Source: Herminiimonas fonticola
GTDB lineage: Bacteria; Pseudomonadota; Gammaproteobacteria; Burkholderiales; Burkholderiaceae_D
Reading direction: 5' to 3'
Assembly: GCF_003293745.1 (NCBI RefSeq)
Contig: NZ_PTLZ01000002.1
Location: 1-64,000 of the forward strand
Length of the DNA stretch: 64,000 nt
Shown here: piece after piece, positions 6,902 to 26,013 of the stretch
How the letters are laid out: each line of letters starts with the position of its first letter
Numbering within the stretch: the stretch's first letter is position 1
The notes under the pieces: model-generated
Told to the model about the DNA's origin: nothing
Database searches by the model: none
Seen by the model: only the letters and a program-made list of their open reading frames with translations
Program-made: the position numbers and the translations under genes

Positions 6902-7043
6902 TTGTCGTGGAGAGAAATACATATAAAGCTTTGAACGATTCCGTTTTGTTTGCGTAGAAACATCATGAGCTTTACGACGCGCAGGAAAATCGACATGTAT
7001 TCCATCCGCTTCTAAAAATAGCAATCAGCCTAATACGCTTTAA

Positions 7044-7075
7044 TGAGTGAGTATTCGCACTAAATTAGTCACTCA
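7044..7075. repeat. Inverted end-like repeat and dyad before ParD-like gene
   Basis: TGAGTGA (7044-7050) and TCACTCA (7069-7075) form a perfect 7-bp dyad just before the ribosome site of the ParD-like gene. It may be that gene's operator. The left part (to 7064), read on the minus strand, also matches the terminal motif of the repeat at 4635-4655, with 18 of 22 positions equal. It is therefore a candidate right end for the recombinase element. Confidence 0.5.
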
Positions 7076-7090
7076 TGCTAAGGAGTTTGC

Positions 7091-7321
7091 GTGGCAATCG
7101 CATTGAAATTATCAGACGAATTAATTGATCTGACCAAGCCATATGCCGTTGCCGAGCATCGCTCAGTTCCGAAGCAGATCGAATATTGGGCGCGTCTCGG
7201 AAAGACTGCTGAGGATAACCCTGAGCTGCCAATTCAGTTCATAAAAAATACTTTACTTGCTATTGCCGAGATAGATGCTAAACAATTTACTGAGTATTCA
7301 CCGGTGAACAATGCACGATGA
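7091..7321 (+). CDS. ParD-like antitoxin, orphan
   Basis: A 76-residue protein of the ParD-like type (PF11903): an N-terminal ribbon-helix-helix-like stretch (ALKLSDELIDLTKPYAVAEH) followed by SVPKQIEYWARLGK. It starts at a GTG six bases after AAGGAG. Such proteins neutralise a toxin and repress their own promoter, and a dyad lies upstream. No toxin gene follows: the DNA after the stop is the reverse complement of the EamA gene's His-rich end. It is either an orphan or a stabilisation remnant at the recombinase element boundary. Confidence 0.7.
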   Translation: MAIALKLSDELIDLTKPYAVAEHRSVPKQIEYWARLGKTAEDNPELPIQFIKNTLLAIAEIDAKQFTEYSPVNNAR

Positions 7322-7386
7322 CGCACTGATTAGGCGAACAGATGCCTATTTCGGGCTACAAATAGGCGGGTCTTCGATGGGAATGC

Positions 7387-8439
7387 TCAATGAGGATGGC
7401 GGTGATGAATATCCGGAAAATGTGAATGACTATGAACTAGTGGTTTATGTTGATGTGGATGAACGTGCGGTTCCTTTCCATCCCATGGAAAATCATGCTC
7501 GTGCTGATGATGCTCATCGTGACGATGAGCATGCGAATGGAATATCGGCGAATGGGTGTGTTCGTGTGCATGAACTTCCGTCACATGTAACCAGATTCCA
7601 GCTCCCATCAAAGCAGCGGCAATCCAGAAGACGGTATTCGGTGTTTCACCTAATATCAACAACGAGACGACGGCACCCACAAAAGGAGCGGCAGAAAAAT
7701 ACGCACCGGTTCGCGCAGTGCCAAGATGCCGGAGTGACAGAACAAACATGACGAGACTTAGCCCATAACCGCAGAATCCCACGATGCCTGCGCTGAAGAC
7801 GACCCGAACTTCCGGTACTGAATAGCTCAGCGCTAACGCAATAGATAAATTCACAGAGCCTGCGACCAAACCTTTAATGCCTGCGATTTGAACAGCATCA
7901 CTCGCTGATACCTTGCGGGTTAAATTATTGTCGATCGCCCAGCACAAACATGCCGCAATAATCGCAAGTGCTCCCCAAGGCACGCCTAGTTCCAAGCGTT
8001 GCCCCCATGACAGCAAGGCACCCGCTATCACGATCAGAATCATGCCGATGAAAATACGGCGATCAAAGTTTTCCTTAAAGACAAACCATGCCAGCATTGC
8101 CGTCAACACGCCTTCCATATTCAGCAACAACGATGCTGACGATGCAGGTGTAACTGCCAATCCAATCATTAGGAGTACCGGCCCGGCGACGCCTCCTGTC
8201 AATATTGCCCCGCTCAACCATGGTAGGTCACTAGCGGTTAAGCGATCACCTGAGACCGGTTTATCTCTAGAGATGAAGTAGCGCACGCCATACCATGCAA
8301 GCAGGCCCAGACCGCTACCTAGATACAGCAGTCCTGCAAGCATAACGGGTTCCATCTGCCCGACCAGCATTTTAGAGAAAGGCGTACTGGCACCAAACAA
8401 TGCGGCGGCAAGTAAGGCATAAACAACTCCTTTGTGCAC
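7387..8439 (-). CDS. EamA/DMT permease with His-rich C-terminal tail
   Basis: A 350-residue inner-membrane transporter with about ten hydrophobic helices and two EamA repeats over residues 1-285. The final 66 residues hold 24 histidines in HxH patterns, together with Asp and Glu, and should bind transition metals in the cytoplasm or periplasm. It is the last gene of the minus-strand chromate operon, 29 bp after the ChrB-C gene. A His-rich tail is unusual on a DMT permease and suggests export or sensing of a metal cation rather than chromate itself. The substrate is unknown. Confidence 0.75.
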   Translation of the reverse strand: MHKGVVYALLAAALFGASTPFSKMLVGQMEPVMLAGLLYLGSGLGLLAWYGVRYFISRDKPVSGDRLTASDLPWLSGAILTGGVAGPVLLMIGLAVTPASSASLLLNMEGVLTAMLAWFVFKENFDRRIFIGMILIVIAGALLSWGQRLELGVPWGALAIIAACLCWAIDNNLTRKVSASDAVQIAGIKGLVAGSVNLSIALALSYSVPEVRVVFSAGIVGFCGYGLSLVMFVLSLRHLGTARTGAYFSAAPFVGAVVSLLILGETPNTVFWIAAALMGAGIWLHVTEVHAHEHTHSPIFHSHAHRHDEHHQHEHDFPWDGKEPHVHPHQHKPLVHSHSHFPDIHHRHPH

Positions 8440-19143: not shown

Positions 19144-19305
19144 ATGAGTACACGGATTCCACCTGCTTTAAAATGGCTGATAGACAAACGAGTCAGGCTT
19201 GGCGATGAAATTCAAAGACTCAACAGGAAGTTCAGATGTCCGGTTTCGTGTGCCCCAACTCGATGGCCTTTTTCCGTTGAGCTGAATTCAATGCTGGCCA
19301 TATGA
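19144..19305 (+). pseudogene. Possible gene fragment (53 codons)
   Basis: The first 30 codons (MSTRIPPALKWLIDKRVRLG, then DEIQRLNRKF) read like genuine protein, but the frame then runs antisense into the 19232 gene and soon stops. It may be the 5' end of a gene cut by the junction near 19230. I do not recognise the family. Confidence 0.25.
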
Positions 19306-19858
19306 ACGGAATTTGGCTTTTAGGCATTTCTCGCAGATCTCGCTGGTATTTATCCTTCTGCAGGTTGATTTTAAAGAAAGTCGGGCTGTGGTCAATAGCA
19401 TGTTTCTGAAGCCTCCACAGAACAACGAAGGAGTACTTGGGGGTTAAGTACTTATTCTTCCTGTAATACGCAAGTGCGTTGGTCAGAATTACATTGTTCT
19501 CGGTCGCTGCTAGTCGCTCCAAGGCGCGGACACAGGACTCCAGCCGCATCTGTTGCATTAAGCGATCAAGCTTCTTCTTGGCATCAGCTGGATTTAACTT
19601 TCGACCTTCTTCGAAGACGGAAAGTCCGAATTTCAAGATGCATTTCGAGCCGACCATCATTTGGTTTTTTGTCAGATGGTTTTTGATCTCGAAGTGATAG
19701 CGAAGTGCCTCCTGCTCACATAACTCGCACGTTTCAATCGGCTCCTCGTGGTCGATTGTCCTGTCCGTGAAGGACCATTCCTCAAATGCCTCCGGAAGAG
19801 TCTTACCAACCGAAAGAGGAAGAATGCTATCTCTTACCCGTTGCGGGTATGCAGTCAT
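19232..19858 (-). CDS. Zinc-finger-like protein, last gene of Ubl-divergent operon
   Basis: A 208-residue protein with a treble-clef-like metal site: CELC at 44-47, histidines at 55 and 61, then MVGSKC with Cys73. The rest is basic and helical with an aromatic patch near 140-190. It begins 27 bp after the ImmA/IrrE gene and is probably on the same transcript. CxxC-H-GSxC fingers of this type occur in phage and plasmid proteins. A nucleic-acid binding or adaptor role is inferred, and a RING-like role in the neighbouring Ubl system is only a hypothesis. Confidence 0.6.
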   Translation of the reverse strand: MTAYPQRVRDSILPLSVGKTLPEAFEEWSFTDRTIDHEEPIETCELCEQEALRYHFEIKNHLTKNQMMVGSKCILKFGLSVFEEGRKLNPADAKKKLDRLMQQMRLESCVRALERLAATENNVILTNALAYYRKNKYLTPKYSFVVLWRLQKHAIDHSPTFFKINLQKDKYQRDLREMPKSQIPFIWPALNSAQRKKAIELGHTKPDI

Positions 19859-19885
19859 AGTGCCTCCTTAATGTCTAAAAATTGA

Positions 19886-20689
19886 CTATCCCTTTTTCGC
19901 ATAGTGGGAATATCCTCGTTCAAACATTTCGATATCGTTGAGGTAGAGCATAACTAATACTTGCCCACTAACAGAGGGCATTGAACTTTCTAACAGCTCG
20001 AAATCGTCAGCGTCATCGTTTTCAAACCAAGCGTCGGCTGATTGCTTTCCACTCTTATTTCCCTCGACACGATCATTGAGGATGTCGTAAGCAAAACTGT
20101 CCTCATCGAGAAGGCGCTTCAGACGCCATTTGCTTGGGACATGGGATGCCCTACTGAACCATTTAAGACCGTTATGCCCATAGCAAGCGACGATAACCGG
20201 TAGGATATCGAGCGCTGCGAGTCGGATCGACATGGCCTGCAGGCTGACATCGAAGTCATTAGCGACACGCTGTAGATCCTGTAGCGTTGGTTTGGAAAGC
20301 GATTTGATAATGGGTCGAAGAATGTTCGTCGGCATGAGCAGATGCGATGCAAATTCGTCCGCCTCTTTTTCGAGAGCTACCTCGGAACTGTAATTCTGGA
20401 CGATGTCGTCGACCCGACATCGGAACGATCGACCTCGGTGGAGCAGCCAGTGGCCAATCTCATGTGCAACAGAAAATCGTTCTCGTCCTCGGCTGGTTGC
20501 TCTTCTGATCGTCGCAATGGCCTTGGTGTCGTAGCCCACCAAGGTGGCTTCGCACCCATTCAATGCTTCGTAACGAACTTCTACCCCTTGGTCAAAAGCA
20601 ATAGCCTCTACGTCAAGGTCGGCTGCCGAAGTAATGCATAATTCATCAACAAGCTGTTCGGCACGATGGCCCGGGCGTATGAACGACAT
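19886..20689 (-). CDS. ImmA/IrrE-family metallopeptidase
   Basis: A 267-residue protein with the zinc-peptidase motif HEIGH at 76-80 and the third ligand Glu near 109 (KEADEFASHLLMP). ImmA/IrrE peptidases cleave repressor-like proteins and so switch on phage, transposon or stress genes. It starts 3 bp after the small helical protein gene, suggesting that protein or the sigma-like regulator as substrate. The C-terminal 130 residues are an extra domain of unknown role. Confidence 0.85.
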   Translation of the reverse strand: MSFIRPGHRAEQLVDELCITSAADLDVEAIAFDQGVEVRYEALNGCEATLVGYDTKAIATIRRATSRGRERFSVAHEIGHWLLHRGRSFRCRVDDIVQNYSSEVALEKEADEFASHLLMPTNILRPIIKSLSKPTLQDLQRVANDFDVSLQAMSIRLAALDILPVIVACYGHNGLKWFSRASHVPSKWRLKRLLDEDSFAYDILNDRVEGNKSGKQSADAWFENDDADDFELLESSMPSVSGQVLVMLYLNDIEMFERGYSHYAKKG

Positions 20690-20692
20690 TGC

Positions 20693-21076
20693 TCACTCGC
20701 TATCGGATCGAAGCTTCTGCAGTTGTTGGTAAATACGCACAACATCTTCATCGGACATTTCATCCAGCTTTCTAGCAGCCAAGGTATAACGCGGATCGTT
20801 CATGGCCGATTGCACAAACGCCCGCGCCGTTTGAATATCGATCACATCAGTCTTCGTTTCATGAGCCGCAGTTTTCAAGGCGAGACCAGTCTTGGCAGCT
20901 GCAAGTCTGCGCCGTCCAATCTCGGCCCGCGCGGCAGAAAGCAGAGACAACTTCTCCTTTCGAAGCGCATCAATATCTTCACCATCCAGCAGCTCAGCAG
21001 CCGACATATTCAGTAGTTCTTGCTGCTGGCTTTCGAGCAGAGCTGACCATTCGTCCTTCTTTTCGGACTGGCTCAC
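20693..21076 (-). CDS. Small helical protein between sigma-like and ImmA genes
   Basis: A 127-residue, charged, alpha-helical protein without a recognised domain. It overlaps the upstream sigma-like gene by 4 bp and precedes the metallopeptidase by 3 bp, so expression of the three is coupled. Candidate roles are the cleavable partner of the peptidase or an anti-sigma-like factor; this is inferred from position only. Confidence 0.6.
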   Translation of the reverse strand: MSQSEKKDEWSALLESQQQELLNMSAAELLDGEDIDALRKEKLSLLSAARAEIGRRRLAAAKTGLALKTAAHETKTDVIDIQTARAFVQSAMNDPRYTLAARKLDEMSDEDVVRIYQQLQKLRSDSE

Positions 21077-21639
21077 TTTTCATTCTCCTTCATGTCTTTC
21101 AAGCGCCTGTTGAGGCGTTTGCGTGCGGCTTCATATTGTTTCATATCCCATCCTAGAGAATCCGCAGCCTCTTGCCCTGTCATCTCCATGCCCCATGCAA
21201 CCGCCAAATCTTGCAAGTCTGGCTCGTTGGCAAGTGAGTTCATGAGCTGATTGAAAAGCTCCTGGCCGCTGATAATCCGTTCTGGCGTGACTTCAGCACG
21301 TGGGATAACGAAAACGCCAGTAGCAGCGGCTTCATCGGCATCGTCACTAACAATTTCCGATACATCTACGAAATGATTGATGGCTCCCGTCGTTTCCCGC
21401 TCCCGCAAGTTGGATGCTTCGCTATGCATCGCGTTCATCAACACGACTGCGGGAGGCAGATCCCTCGGGAAGATCCTATCCTGCCCGAGCAGGGCGGTGA
21501 AAGTCTCCTGGATCAGATCTTCGGCAGACATGTTCACCAACCCTCGGACGTATGTCCGAGCTTTGTATCGAATCCGCTGGTAATCGTCATCCGAGAGCTG
21601 TTCCAGCGCCCGGTACACCTCTTCCTTGCTAAGACTCAC
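21073..21639 (-). CDS. Sigma-70-like regulator
   Basis: A 188-residue protein with a region-2-like segment (SAEDLIQETFTALL, near 40) and a region-4-like helix-turn-helix (TGQEAADSLGWDMKQYEAARKRLNRRL) at the C-terminus, similar to ECF-type sigma factors. The GTG at 21639 is chosen because GGGAGGGA lies just upstream. It is the first gene of the minus-strand arm and would control it or the divergent Ubl arm through the shared region. Confidence 0.7.
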   Translation of the reverse strand: MSLSKEEVYRALEQLSDDDYQRIRYKARTYVRGLVNMSAEDLIQETFTALLGQDRIFPRDLPPAVVLMNAMHSEASNLRERETTGAINHFVDVSEIVSDDADEAAATGVFVIPRAEVTPERIISGQELFNQLMNSLANEPDLQDLAVAWGMEMTGQEAADSLGWDMKQYEAARKRLNRRLKDMKENEK

Positions 21640-21686
21640 ACTGTCCCTCCCGTGTTTTATGAAGATGATGACTGCCCAACACACCG

Positions 21687-21729
21687 TTTCGGACGTCTTC
21701 TAGAAATATTTTTATTCCGGCGTCCGAAA
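21687..21729. promoter_or_regulatory. Divergent regulatory region with 9+9 bp dyad
   Basis: TTTCGGACG (21687-21695) and CGTCCGAAA (21721-21729) form a perfect inverted repeat with a 25-bp AT-rich spacer, placed between the divergent sigma-like and Ubl genes. It could be an operator controlling both arms or a pair of sigma-factor promoter elements. Confidence 0.6.
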
Positions 21730-21872
21730 ATCCTATCCTCGTCAGTCATACCAAGTAGATGGCAAGAATGCGAGAACGGTAACCAATGCTGCCGAAATGA
21801 TACTGCTGCAAAACCGGTTACAAAACAAGCAATTTGGGCCACTGACTTTTCTACATTTGAAGGATTAAAGAC

Positions 21873-22139
21873 ATGAGTAATGATAAAGACAAGCCCAACG
21901 GGCACAAAGACGTCACCATTTATATCAACGGTACGCCTAAGGTGGTGCGTAAGGAACGGCTGACGTTTGAAGAGATCGTTGCCCTGGCTTTCGACAACCC
22001 GCCGACCGGCGAAGGCGTGCAGTTCACGGTGCAGTATTCCCGTGGCCACTCCAACTCTAAGGGTAGTCTAGTTGAAGGCCAGTCGGTTCAAGTCAAAGAA
22101 GGGATGGAATTCGATGTCACGTCCACTAATCGCTCGTAG
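21873..22139 (+). CDS. Ubiquitin-like (multiubiquitin-domain) protein
   Basis: An 88-residue protein with the features of the prokaryotic multiubiquitin family: a beta-hairpin start (KDVTIYINGTPKVVRKERLT), a FEEIVALAF helix, and the terminal strand QVKEGMEFDVT. It carries one domain and ends STNRS, with no di-glycine, as I recall for this family. It should be activated by the E1-like enzyme encoded next, whose start overlaps its last 26 bp. GAAGGA precedes the ATG at 21873. It is the modifier of a bacterial ubiquitin-like system. Confidence 0.8.
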   Translation: MSNDKDKPNGHKDVTIYINGTPKVVRKERLTFEEIVALAFDNPPTGEGVQFTVQYSRGHSNSKGSLVEGQSVQVKEGMEFDVTSTNRS

Positions 22140-23295
22140 TCCCGACCTTCTGCGTCTGCAGAATGAAGGGTATGACATCGGAGTCCGCGATGGCTTCTTG
22201 CTCGTCAAGGACGTGCCCTACGTTACGGCCGCCCGTGAAATCAAGCGTGGAATCCTGATTTCTGCACTTGAATTGAACGGGGACAAGACCACTACACCGC
22301 AAAACCATGTGGCGATGTGGACGGGCGAGCATCCCTGTCACCATGATGGCCGGAGCATCACCACCATCGCTAATCCGAGCCCGCCGCAGGATCTAGGCGG
22401 TGGTATCCGTGCTGACTTCACATTCTCGGCCAAGGCTGCCTATCGTGATTACCATCATAAGATGACAACCTATATCGCTCGCATCTGCGGGGAGGCCAAG
22501 GCCATCGATTCATCCGTGACGGCAGCCACATTTCCGGCAATGCCTACCGAAGAAGGTGAGTCCGTATTTCGGTATCTCGATACCGCGAGCAGTCGAGTCG
22601 GCATCGGCGCGCTGAACGATCGCTTGGTAGGGCTGAAAATCGCTATTGTGGGTCTCGGCGGAACGGGGTCGTATGTCTTGGATTTGGTTGCAAAGACCTG
22701 CGTCGCGGAAATCCATCTGTTCGACGCGGATGTCTATTCTCAGCACAATGCTTTCCGCTCCCCAGGTGCGGCATCCATTGAAGACTTGCAGGCCAAGCCG
22801 TCCAAGCTTGCCTATTTGTCAGGAATCTACAACCGTATGCGACGCGGCATTTACTCACATGAGGTATATGCCGATGTCTCAACAGAAGTGCTTTATTCAA
22901 TGGATTTTGTCTTCTTGTGTTTGGATCGTGGTGCAGCGAAGAAGATCCTTGTCAATATGCTCGTCGAAAAAGGCATTCCCTTCGTGGACGTTGGTATGGG
23001 TATCCTGCAGTCCCAGGACAAGCTGACCGGTCTTATGCGCGTCACCAGCTTTGCGGCAGGGGACGATCCTTCCGTGCTGGCTCGCATTGACTACTCAGAC
23101 GAGGATATGGCGAAAAACGAATACTCTACCAATATCCAGATTGCCGAGTTGAACACCCTGAATGCTGCGTTGGCGGTGATTCAATGGAAGAAGCGCTACG
23201 GTATCTACCGCGACTCGTCGCGAGCGAACTCGTACAGCTACTCCATTGCCGCCAATGAAATGGCGAACCAAGCAGACGATGAGGAAGCGGCATGA
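22114..23295 (+). CDS. E1-like ThiF adenylyltransferase of Ubl system
   Basis: A 393-residue protein. Residues 1-160 form an N-terminal region like the DUF6791 domain of such enzymes, with the conserved-looking stretch GEHPCHHDG around Cys75. Residues 165-370 form a ThiF/E1 adenylation fold: IVGLGGTGS at 178-186, FDADVYSQHNAFR at 203-215 and FLCLDRG at 267-273. It would adenylate the Ubl C-terminus with ATP. No cysteine occurs after residue 269, where a canonical E1 would have its thioester cysteine. It overlaps the next gene in an ATGA junction. Confidence 0.85.
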   Translation: MSRPLIARSPDLLRLQNEGYDIGVRDGFLLVKDVPYVTAAREIKRGILISALELNGDKTTTPQNHVAMWTGEHPCHHDGRSITTIANPSPPQDLGGGIRADFTFSAKAAYRDYHHKMTTYIARICGEAKAIDSSVTAATFPAMPTEEGESVFRYLDTASSRVGIGALNDRLVGLKIAIVGLGGTGSYVLDLVAKTCVAEIHLFDADVYSQHNAFRSPGAASIEDLQAKPSKLAYLSGIYNRMRRGIYSHEVYADVSTEVLYSMDFVFLCLDRGAAKKILVNMLVEKGIPFVDVGMGILQSQDKLTGLMRVTSFAAGDDPSVLARIDYSDEDMAKNEYSTNIQIAELNTLNAALAVIQWKKRYGIYRDSSRANSYSYSIAANEMANQADDEEAA

Positions 23296-23687
23296 CGCGG
23301 TTGTATAGCATCAGCCACCAATATGTGGAGTACATCCCAGAACACTTACTGCCGGGGGTACTCTACATTTCTAAACGTTTCAGAACGGCCTCCCATTTGT
23401 GTTGTTGCGGTTGCGGTATGAAGGTCGTCACGCCCCTGAATCCTGCCAAGTGGAGCCTCACTGACTATGGCCCCAACGTATCGTTGTCGCCCTCAATTGG
23501 CAACTGGAATCATCCGTGCCGCTCGCACTACTTCATTATCCGTAATCATGTGCGCTGGGCAGGAAAAATGAGTCAGCGCCAAGTCGCCGCCGTACGGCAG
23601 CGGGATCATATTGACGTGGAACGTCACGCTAAAGGCAAGAACGTAGTGGCGCACCTATCCGAAATATTTAAACGCTGGTTCAAATAA
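23292..23687 (+). CDS. Cys/His-rich DUF6527-type protein
   Basis: A 131-residue protein with a metal-binding pattern: HLCCCGCG at 35-42 and NHPCRSHYFI at 73-82. This matches the DUF6527 proteins that follow ThiF genes in bacterial ubiquitin-like operons. The C-terminal third is basic. It overlaps the E1-like gene by 4 bp and closes the plus-strand arm. The role may be a ligase-like, hydrolase-like or target-binding part; family function is not established to my knowledge. Confidence 0.75.
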   Translation: MTRLYSISHQYVEYIPEHLLPGVLYISKRFRTASHLCCCGCGMKVVTPLNPAKWSLTDYGPNVSLSPSIGNWNHPCRSHYFIIRNHVRWAGKMSQRQVAAVRQRDHIDVERHAKGKNVVAHLSEIFKRWFK

Positions 23688-24006: not shown

Positions 24007-25431
24007 TCAGTCGTCACCGAGGTCTTCGCGCTCTTCATTAATCTCACTTTCTTGGGGCAATCCAAGTTGCGAGTACTGTTGTAGTACTTCTCGAATAGCG
24101 TCTACCACACTAAGCCCCTGGCGAATGAAGCCTGCCAAACAAATAAGAACTTCTGCTTCTATCCCATCAGCTCGAGCTTTTGCCATCAATTCTTTTGATG
24201 GCAAAATAAGTAGGCCGACCTCATCTGAACTTGGAATAACGACGTCAAATATGCGAAATACTTCACTTCCGGTCGTCGTTGCATCTATGCTGAAGTAATC
24301 CCAAAAAACTTGGCCAAGCGTTCCTTCCGGGTGCTGCTCGCGCCTAGCCCATTGTTTTAAAGTATTTTCGCCTTTTGATACCTTCTCGAGGAATCGTTGT
24401 GCTTTACCAGGTATCGTTGCTGATGCTTTTCGACTGTTGGAGTAAGTTCTTTGTGAAAGGCTTGCTGCATCCTTGACTATCTTCCACACCATCGACCATA
24501 ACTCGCTTACGCTATGAATTTCAAGTGCTGTTCTAAAGATACTTTTCATCTGCTTCGACTCTTCCTCTTCTAGTTGGAAGTCGTAGTCGATGCATTGATC
24601 TAGAAGGTATCGATGGCAGTCTGCTACAGCGTAGTCGAGCCATAGATTTCGAAGGGCAAGATGATCTGTATAGTCGCGATTCTCTAATATTGATAATGCG
24701 TTCTCACTTCTACCAAGTTTGGAATCAGGGACAAGGAAGAAGCAGGCTTGCGCGGGGTAGTGCCATATTTCATCCCCGTTCATGCTGTAAGTTCCCTCTT
24801 TGGCTGCCAGATAATGTGATAGGAGGATTTGAGAATTGCGTAACTTGTCGATAAAGAAATCGGAGTCTGAGGGAGTTAAATTTATACAGTCCCGGTACAT
24901 GAATGTACCGGAAAGCAAGCGAGGATTAATAGCTTGATGTAATGCAAGTAGGATTAATGCGGCATCATCAGAAATCTCACTATAGTCGTGATCAGTCGCT
25001 AGGTTTTCTTCTGTAAGTTTTTCAAGACGTTCGCGGAGTCGTAATTTCTCTGCACGCTGATTTTCTTCTTCAAGATTTCGACAATCGACGCAGCGTGTCT
25101 TTAATTTTTGTAACGTCCGCCTTATGTCTGCGCGGACGAATACTTGATGAAAACCTTCACAATGTGAGCAAGTTTGATTTCTATCCCAAGCCTGGGAAAC
25201 TTGAGAAATGTGTTGTGTCAGTTGGTGGATATTTTTGATTTCTTTATAGGGTAGAAGATCTGCGACATTCTCTTTAAATTTGCCATCCTCATTCATTGCC
25301 CAATAGCGATCGACTAACACATGATCATCCGGATCGTCTGAATAAATTTCCACGTTTATCACGTTCTCCCTCCTTCCCTCGTTGAGTATTTTTTCATGCA
25401 GCGACGACGACACGTCGACGAAATACGGCAT
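24007..25431 (-). CDS. Unrecognised zinc-finger protein, 474 residues
   Basis: No family recognised. A zinc-ribbon-like site is formed by CSHC at 88-91 and CVDC at 114-117, followed by a short charged coiled coil (near 118-145), then a large helical domain with many aromatic residues. ATG at 25431 is preferred over GTG at 25437. It stands alone between the IS3 remnant and the second exonuclease, immediately beside the ubiquitin-like module. A defence or nucleic-acid role is possible by position but not shown. Confidence 0.6.
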   Translation of the reverse strand: MPYFVDVSSSLHEKILNEGRRENVINVEIYSDDPDDHVLVDRYWAMNEDGKFKENVADLLPYKEIKNIHQLTQHISQVSQAWDRNQTCSHCEGFHQVFVRADIRRTLQKLKTRCVDCRNLEEENQRAEKLRLRERLEKLTEENLATDHDYSEISDDAALILLALHQAINPRLLSGTFMYRDCINLTPSDSDFFIDKLRNSQILLSHYLAAKEGTYSMNGDEIWHYPAQACFFLVPDSKLGRSENALSILENRDYTDHLALRNLWLDYAVADCHRYLLDQCIDYDFQLEEEESKQMKSIFRTALEIHSVSELWSMVWKIVKDAASLSQRTYSNSRKASATIPGKAQRFLEKVSKGENTLKQWARREQHPEGTLGQVFWDYFSIDATTTGSEVFRIFDVVIPSSDEVGLLILPSKELMAKARADGIEAEVLICLAGFIRQGLSVVDAIREVLQQYSQLGLPQESEINEEREDLGDD

Positions 25432-25545
25432 CGTCACTATTTTTATGCCTCATTTTATCTTGCGTTAGAGCCATGCCCCACGAAGGAGCTGACATAAACC
25501 TGCATCCCGTGGAAAATTTCTGTTCACTTATCATGTCACTGATTG

Positions 25546-26013
25546 TTATTTTTTGGATTGATGCGGACGGTACGCGTGTCGATTCGCCTGCGCGTCGTAC
25601 AGTGCGTGATGTTCCGGCAAGCCGGAGTGCTTAAAAAAATCGTAAAGCATCAGTTCGACGATCTCGTTGCTCACTAGCTTATAGTTACACCATGGCGGCA
25701 CGCGACAATCTAAGGCCTCACAAAATAAATCCCAATCAGTCTGGGAATCTACGCAGATATAAACCTCCTCTTTGTTTCGACGGACAATTTCAAGCCATTT
25801 AATAATTTCCAGATGAAGGTTGTCGACAGTGAAGTATGAATGAGGAATTTTCCGCAACAATGGCACGACTACTTCACGTACGAATGTCGAGCAAGCGCAA
25901 TCTGGATATGGAACCTCCGCGTAAAAATCCTCTCCGTATTCGGATGCCATTCCTAAACTGATAAGGTGAGGTTCAAGAAAATCCGTGAACTCAGTATCTA
26001 GAAATACGTTCAT
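25546..26013 (-). CDS. DEDDh-type 3'-5' exonuclease, copy 2
   Basis: A 155-residue paralogue of the protein at 1808-2269, differing at about 20 of 153 positions but sharing DTEFTDF and HALYDAQANR. Cysteines replace other residues at a few places (DCACS, DCRVP). The ATG at 26013 matches the start chosen for the other copy. Same orientation and flanking position suggest an ancient duplication that now brackets the accessory interval. Confidence 0.75.
   Translation of the reverse strand: MNVFLDTEFTDFLEPHLISLGMASEYGEDFYAEVPYPDCACSTFVREVVVPLLRKIPHSYFTVDNLHLEIIKWLEIVRRNKEEVYICVDSQTDWDLFCEALDCRVPPWCNYKLVSNEIVELMLYDFFKHSGLPEHHALYDAQANRHAYRPHQSKK

Follow-up and report, generated by a model that had tools for sequence, protein, structure and literature searches.

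Portable controllers accompany many immune operons of bacteria. For Bub operons, for operons of cyclic-oligonucleotide-based anti-phage signalling systems (CBASS) and for other immune operons they include CapK+CapS and CapW/BrxR, kinase/STAS or WYL proteins that act as repressors, and CapH+CapP, a helix-turn-helix (HTH) repressor with an M78 protease activated by single-stranded DNA (ssDNA); CapW or CapH+CapP was counted with 219 of 544 Bub operons and CapK+CapS with 59 (EMBO J 2026, PMC13373217, in its accessible portion). CapP and PprI cut their regulators on ssDNA, and in the PprI(IrrE)-DdrO pair, according to the excerpted text, the M78 protease cuts a C-terminal loop of DdrO, which binds DNA and represses genes of the DNA-damage response, and changing Arg118 in this cleavage-site loop weakens the contact with PprI (PMC13373217, PMC10904395). 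Here we analysed 64,000 nucleotides of Herminiimonas fonticola (GCF_003293745.1, contig NZ_PTLZ01000002.1, positions 1-64,000; hereafter the window, its 3.1 Mb genome being G000), in which minus-strand genes for an extracytoplasmic function (ECF)-type sigma factor, a small helical protein (SM) and a CapP-type protease lie divergent from a plus-strand operon for a ubiquitin-like protein (Ubl), an E1-like enzyme and a DUF6527 protein. We think it rather likely that the three minus-strand genes form a portable sigma switch, in which CapP would cleave SM, a putative anti-sigma factor, and the freed sigma would drive the immune operon together with its own.

The cassette shares with CapH+CapP a CapP-type protease, an adjacent divergent operon and a CapH-like C-terminus on the putative substrate, but it is not a CapH+CapP pair: it lacks one of the defining parts, the HTH repressor, and has an ECF-type sigma and a separate small protein instead. 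Like CapK+CapS and CapW/BrxR it recurs beside Bub, CBASS and other immune operons; unlike them it includes a sigma factor and a protease. The proposed cut in a C-terminal loop with an important Arg resembles that of PprI-DdrO, although there the substrate is a DNA-binding repressor. ECF sigma/anti-sigma pairs have sigma regions 2 and 4, an overlapping downstream partner gene and an autoregulated -35/-10 promoter. The cassette is alike in the first two respects and has a predicted -35/-10 promoter upstream of sigma; it differs in having a soluble ImmA/IrrE-type protease as the proposed release step and a predicted dedicated two-promoter immune regulon.

Composition and spread of the cassette

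Rechecking the open reading frames (ORFs) reproduced the seven genes, strands, overlaps and gaps of an initial annotation of this DNA (Table 1). The sigma and SM genes overlap by 4 bp, SM and CapP are separated by 3 bp, and a gene for a 208-aa protein follows 27 bp beyond CapP; on the other strand, the Ubl and E1 genes overlap by 26 bp and the E1 and DUF6527 genes by 4 bp. A Pfam scan of the seven proteins, as the annotation had proposed, found Multi_ubiq, DUF6791 plus ThiF, DUF6527 and M78; the sigma-like, SM and 208-aa proteins passed no Pfam cut-off, and no HTH family was found over cut-off in sigma or SM. The protease matched Pfam Peptidase_M78 (E = 4.1e-16) and PADLOC capP (4.2e-60), its family profile matched the CapP structure PDB 7t5t (6e-17), and all 50 sigma-linked CapPs, the window's included, carry HExxH, a family membership that supports the earlier proposal of proteolysis as the likely control step.

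The same annotation had called the first cassette gene sigma-like. For the single window protein this label is weak (TIGR02937, 2.2e-4; Sigma70_r2, 0.021), while for the family it is firm at the level of sequence profiles: a profile of 45 relatives matched the ECF factor SigH (PDB 5zx2) at 1.1e-5 over both regions 2 and 4 (profile positions 43-188). That alignment (A4) comprises 45 of the 50 sigmas; L041, L056, L074, L075 and L085, which were near-identical or poorly trimmed, were omitted. Its invariant residues are R70 and S88, and its consensus retains DLLQEA in region 2. In the records of three plasmid loci (L118, L120 and L122) the gene is annotated as a sigma-70 family factor. The window protein probably starts at the GTG listed in Table 1, because the -10 element of the predicted sigma promoter falls inside the longest ORF.

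SM showed a weak match to PADLOC capH (3.4e-5), residues 41-125 aligning to positions 29-101 of 103, and the capH profile reached E ≤ 0.01 in 37 of 49 family members (alignment A5, 49 of 51 sequences; L041 and L085, near-identical or badly trimmed, were omitted). R102 is invariant in all 49. An AlphaFold2 (AF2) model (predicted local distance difference test, pLDDT, 86.8) has four helices, 9-22, 35-74, 81-92 and 109-126, the third and fourth flanking a loop that contains R102, and hhalign placed this residue on an Arg of all nine CapH-like C-termini examined (P = 0.002-0.05). Given the CapH-like C-terminus, the alignment of R102 with the CapH Arg and the parallel with DdrO Arg118, we consider SM a likely CapP substrate, by analogy. 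The other half of SM may hold sigma, a proposal drawn from the gene order, from the 4-bp overlap with the sigma gene, found in 37 of 50 loci, and from the promoter result described below.

To see how far the three genes travel together, the species-level genome collection (84,980 species) was scanned with a CapP alignment, yielding 56 loci, 49 of which carry sigma, SM and CapP, a fraction that does not estimate all CapPs since the query was built from sigma-linked ones. Among the remaining seven, one lies at a contig edge (L055), one contains a stretch of Ns and a fragment resembling sigma (L088), one keeps SM (L087), one has an HTH gene (L089), and three have no recognisable partner (L058, L060 and L090). 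CapP was found at E ≤ 1e-20 in 26 plasmid records, and by profile all eight loci fetched from these have the three genes in order (sigma ≤ 8.8e-29, SM ≤ 3.7e-22). A sigma profile search of the class matched 18 of 369 genomes; in the fetched loci SM and CapP accompany sigma only in G000 and G779, the others having what look like ordinary sigma factors; the SM profile, run over 398 genomes of the phylum, returned G000 and two weak matches in long frames that were judged chance. In viruses, window CapP had no match at 1e-10 in 50,697 phage records, viral contigs gave two loci, and a sigma alignment scan of viral contigs confirmed none of 69 stretches. One IMG/VR contig (L111, 4339-8759) carries a multi-ubiquitin operon and the sigma cassette beside Mu-like phage structural genes, as read by eye.

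The window DNA from 19881 to 23329 is 78% identical to contig L035, which comes from another genome. This conservation, with the recurrence of sigma-SM-CapP in 49 of the 56 scanned loci, places the layout beyond chance. The contig is a metagenome contig labelled Planctomycetales, a label that may be a binning error because its CapP is 85% identical to the window's. Similarity ends on the CapP side while the contig continues; on the opposite side the contig itself ends. Since the 208-aa gene had no match in the relatives fetched up to this comparison, we set CapP and DUF6527 as the two ends of the unit.

The initial annotation had joined all seven genes in one conjugation system. Such a seven-gene system was rejected, the 208-aa gene being absent from the fetched relatives and the two arms separable. 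Seven Multi_ubiq genomes occur among 148 relatives, and the cassette adjoins the operon in three (G000, G080 and G099), so the plus-strand arm is not confined to loci lacking the minus-strand arm. That the sigma/ImmA arm travels with ThiF-Ubl pairs thus held in part: four fetched plasmid loci with a window-kind E1 (L091-L094) have neither sigma nor SM, other partners exist, and 136 plasmid records match the E1 versus only 26 with a CapP of the window's type (E ≤ 1e-20). In two of these four plasmids, L092 and L094, genes for UvrD-type helicases adjoin the Ubl-E1-DUF6527 operon, and the annotation shows no Cap controller next to it. Because the arms are separable and the sigma arm is also found beside CBASS, Qat and other operons, sigma-SM-CapP is, judged by its gene neighbourhoods, a portable controller and not a component of one conjugation system.

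Partner operons were assigned by domain scans of representatives and by BLAST clusters for the others. A multi-ubiquitin operon of the window's kind is the partner in the window, L011, L035, L046, L047, L050 and L065, and one with an E2 in L053, L062, L067-L069, L080, L081 (L069 scanned) and L111 and, by annotation, on the Paracoccus marcusii plasmid pMARC5 (L121), whose operon is annotated multiubiquitin-E2-ThiF-DUF6527. The Ubl operon of L011, the second one seen beside a sigma relative, comes from a different family (G099). CBASS-type partners were found at L013, L040, L043, L045, L049, L059, L061, L070, L071, L077, L078, L086, L122 and L124; L013 represents CBASS genes on a Cereibacter plasmid, the one inspected of six Cereibacter records that match sigma, and L012, where a sigma relative stands beside a nucleotidyltransferase (NTase) gene as read by eye, is the same place as L071 (L015 and L072 likewise coincide). 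Other partners are 6A-MBL-like (L063), QatA (L073, 1.4e-211), an OLD/Gaj-like ATPase (L066), GmrSD_N (L051) and HNH (L056). Across the scanned representatives the partner domains were Multi_ubiq/E2/JAB-ThiF, CD-NTase, SAVED, patatin, E2-ThiF, QatA and SLATT_4; the partners of L048, L064, L075 and L085 were left unassigned in this tally.

In seven betaproteobacterial loci (L036, L037, L038, L039, L041, L042 and L044, two of them near-copies) a protein of about 314 aa comes first in the divergent operon (minus strand, 6912-7856, in L038); one scanned representative had no Pfam or PADLOC match, and we regard it as a candidate immune gene. Eight alphaproteobacterial loci (L013 at 7582-7860, L048, L049, L051, L052, L054, L057 and L059) encode, beside the promoter region, a protein of about 92 aa that is possibly a fourth cassette member; the genes behind it differ from locus to locus.

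A quick tree of CapPs, built without five proteins shorter than 200 aa, placed 52 sigma-linked rows and one orphan on one side and 11 HTH-type rows on another, each with support 100; L097 and L101 are labelled as HTH-type with no HTH gene confirmed upstream, and L103 and L104 are remote CapP/IrrE relatives. On this sequence tree the sigma-linked CapPs are separate from those linked to HTH (CapH) genes. Partner labels, set by hand from BLAST clusters and domain scans for 38 of the 52 sigma-linked rows, change at least 12 times for four labels over those 38 rows, and at least six times for Bub versus CBASS over 26 rows. Because of these changes the cassette looks old and exchanged between operons. 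Controllers may be exchanged as well: a Pacificitalea plasmid carries a window-kind Ubl-E1-DUF6527 operon with HTH and ImmA/IrrE genes in the CapH+CapP layout replacing the sigma cassette, and the window's own chromosome (G000:C1 1314000-1328000; L125 4197-7948) has, divergent from a cyclase-HORMA-TRIP13 CBASS operon, a true CapH (6.6e-30, whole length) and CapP (1.6e-76), which together suggest that sigma cassettes and CapH+CapP are exchangeable.

Paired promoter-like elements

Intergenic regions between cassette and partner were scored for 53 loci. A candidate nested inverted repeat was found in 47, with near-equal arm offsets in 39, and anchoring at GTCC without gaps revealed a second block at an equal distance in both directions. 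With equal offsets required, 31 of the 53 regions, which include a few near-copies and are not all independent, scored ≥14, compared with 0.03% of 3,180 shuffles. Hold-out plasmid loci behaved similarly: four of eight reached ≥14, and a fifth did once slack was allowed. Shuffles, scored without slack, reached it in 1 of 1,600 cases, and none of nine CapH-type loci had the nested repeat at ≥14.

In a leave-one-locus-out search, 68 of 74 arms (37 of 39 loci; L045 and L056 were omitted as their best candidate looked like another site) had the second block at a distance of 19-21 nt from the G of GTCC, whereas the inner core-to-core (-35/-35) gap varied from 2 to 38 nt over the 37 loci. A single symmetric protein would fix the inner distance; two divergent promoters therefore fit this pattern better. 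For the same reason, with inner-outer spacing fixed within 1 nt in those 68 arms, an operator for a single dimer was rejected. The consensus reads TGTCCG, then GCATAG, AGTCAT or GCCTA, which is the layout of ECF promoters. The window pattern, CGTCCGN{14,16}CAGTCAT, occurs in the 3.1 Mb genome only at the window's two sites, and the reversed-pattern control gave zero. By sequence, then, the intergenic region holds two predicted back-to-back promoter-like elements, one in each direction, in agreement with the joint control through a common intergenic region suggested by the initial annotation.

How the cassette may act

We propose that at rest SM keeps the ECF-type sigma inactive. Upon DNA damage, probably sensed as ssDNA, CapP would cut SM in its C-terminal loop around Arg102, and the released sigma with RNA polymerase would fire the two back-to-back promoters. 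One, sigma's own, would transcribe sigma-SM-CapP as a feedback that also resets the switch; the other would transcribe the Ubl-E1-DUF6527 operon, whose product would conjugate Ubl to targets.

Several observations count against this proposal. Individual sigmas are weak matches, with Sigma70_r2 at E ≤ 0.01 in 12 of 45 members and the window protein not among them. The alignment of SM with CapH C-termini is statistically weak at the P values given above, and since SM has no structural match, its assignment as an anti-sigma is argued from position and size; against PDB, SM had no match by sequence, nor any by fold with the AF2 model. Six of the 53 regions had no candidate in the first scoring, and the window itself, whose spacers of 15 and 16 nt are unequal, therefore reached only 9 under strict scoring, against 14 with slack. 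The genome-wide pattern was written from the window's two sites and is exact, so that looser sites would be missed, and DNA symmetry alone does not separate activation from repression. Finally, scans of the partners at L052, L054 (MobA), L057, L072 (resolvase), L079 (TonB receptor), L083 and L084 showed nothing clearly immune.

The symmetry would also suit a repressor, in which the sigma-like protein, lending its HTH only, and SM sit on the nested inverted repeats until cleavage by CapP lifts repression as in CapH+CapP. Nested repeats in most regions, the kinship seen in the PADLOC capP and capH matches and the fact that the known Cap controllers are repressors (PMC13373217, accessible portion) speak for it; the variable inner gap next to a near-constant inner-outer spacing, and the retention of region 2 by the sigma family, make it unlikely. 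It is quite improbable, too, that CapP acts on sigma itself or that SM is an adaptor or chaperone, proteolysis ending rather than starting expression. The failure of SM to match a known fold in the PDB search would be in keeping with that arrangement, yet the CapH-like C-terminus with its invariant Arg belongs to SM and not to sigma, and the M78 protease PprI cuts a C-terminal loop of its partner regulator (PMC10904395, in the text available). Many Ubl-E1 operons lack the sigma arm, as they would if two independent modules shared an island by chance and the sigma arm regulated itself or something else; we give this very little credence, as the divergent layout, with a predicted promoter facing the partner, is seen again with other partners and the genome holds the exact promoter pattern at two sites only.

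We lean towards viewing the proposed sigma switch as a fourth class of portable immune-operon controller, in which an ssDNA-triggered cytosolic metalloprotease would free an ECF sigma and so give positive, self-amplifying and two-promoter-specific induction of whatever operon is plugged in. As a variant of the Cap controllers, its novelty is unproven. The accessible portion of PMC13373217 describes CapW, CapH+CapP and CapK+CapS as relieving repression, whereas a sigma-based controller would activate; there, sigma factors are mentioned only for the likeness of CapK/CapS to anti-sigma kinases and antagonists. Among the matches listed in an open-access literature search, no paper dealt with a sigma factor together with CapP/IrrE or anti-phage genes. 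In such a switch an ImmA/IrrE protease would be linked with a sigma factor, and every immune operon would have a promoter reserved for it. Since this promoter is readable from sequence, regulons and new immune genes, such as the 314-aa gene, would become predictable, and the induction signal of Bub-like operons directly testable.

The multi-ubiquitin operon and flanking genes

By domain content the plus-strand arm is a multi-ubiquitin-type (Bub-like) operon. The Ubl matched Multi_ubiq (PF14452, 1.7e-18) and a solved multi-ubiquitin protein (PDB 9cd2, 3.8e-9), and the last four residues of Ubl in all eight operons compared read T-x-[RKQ]-S, with no Gly-Gly. The E1 matched DUF6791 (PF20590, 6.9e-52) and ThiF (PF00899, 3.9e-14), and the DUF6527 protein matched PF20137 (2.2e-22), with no sequence match in PDB at E ≤ 0.1. 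In a profile search of PDB, Citrobacter BubCD came first for the E1 family (1.8e-10), ahead of UBA5 and TcdA (~3e-7), and bears out the ubiquitin-like and E1-like nature that had been read from the sequence; by fold, an AF2 model (mean pLDDT 72.7; eight sequences) also had BubCD as its top match (2.7e-11, TM-score 0.41). An identity as a thiamin or molybdenum cofactor ThiF was rejected, since the E1 matched NCBIfam PRK06153.1-4 (4.4e-164) far better than ThiF (7.4e-7) or MoeB (4.8e-4) and BubCD led the PDB matches.

The operon is like the Bub pathway (Citrobacter BubCD; PDB 9ea4, 9ea5, 9ea8, 9eae and 9eav, by their titles) in its Multi_ubiq-type Ubl and related E1, and DUF6527 is found in the pMARC5 operon as in the window's. 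Unlike that pathway, it has a single Ubl domain, ending in TNRS, and no separate E2 (BubB) gene was found in the window's Ubl operon. Where the L069 E1 has Prok-JAB before ThiF (1.2e-6), Pfam found DUF6791 in the window protein and no JAB-type domain as in related loci; hhalign of DUF6791 gave P = 0.038 with Prok-E2_E and P = 0.15 with JAB. Any role of the operon against phage is putative, and for Bub protection against phage is described as not demonstrated (PMC13373217, accessible portion).

Table 1. Features of the cassette, the divergent operon and the region between them (window coordinates)
Feature	Position	Strand	Basis
208-aa Cys-rich, zinc-finger-like protein behind CapP	19232..19858	-	
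CapP-type ImmA/IrrE (M78) metallopeptidase, 267 aa, HEIGH motif	19886..20689	-	Pfam, PADLOC, PDB profile
SM (127 aa, helical), putative anti-sigma and putative substrate of CapP; C-terminal loop with the invariant Arg102	20693..21076	-	PADLOC capH, AF2
ECF-type sigma factor, 188 aa from probable GTG start 21637-21639	21073..21639 (longest ORF to 21684)	-	TIGR02937, SigH profile
Sigma-operon promoter (predicted): -35 CGTCCG 21695-21690, -10 CAGTCAT 21674-21668	21668..21695	-	
AT-rich spacer between both -35 elements	21696..21720	.	Sequence
Ubl-operon promoter (predicted): -35 CGTCCG 21721-21726, -10 CAGTCAT 21743-21749	21721..21749	+	
Ubiquitin-like protein of 88 aa, ending in TNRS and lacking Gly-Gly	21873..22139	+	PF14452
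E1-like enzyme, 393 aa: N-terminal DUF6791 and ThiF adenylyltransferase	22114..23295	+	PF20590, PF00899
DUF6527 protein, 131 aa, Cys/His-rich	23292..23687	+	PF20137

Between the Ubl operon and chromosomal genes, the window from 24007 to 26013 encodes one protein of 476 aa with no family assigned and one of 155 aa that weakly matches RNase AS (1.8e-4).

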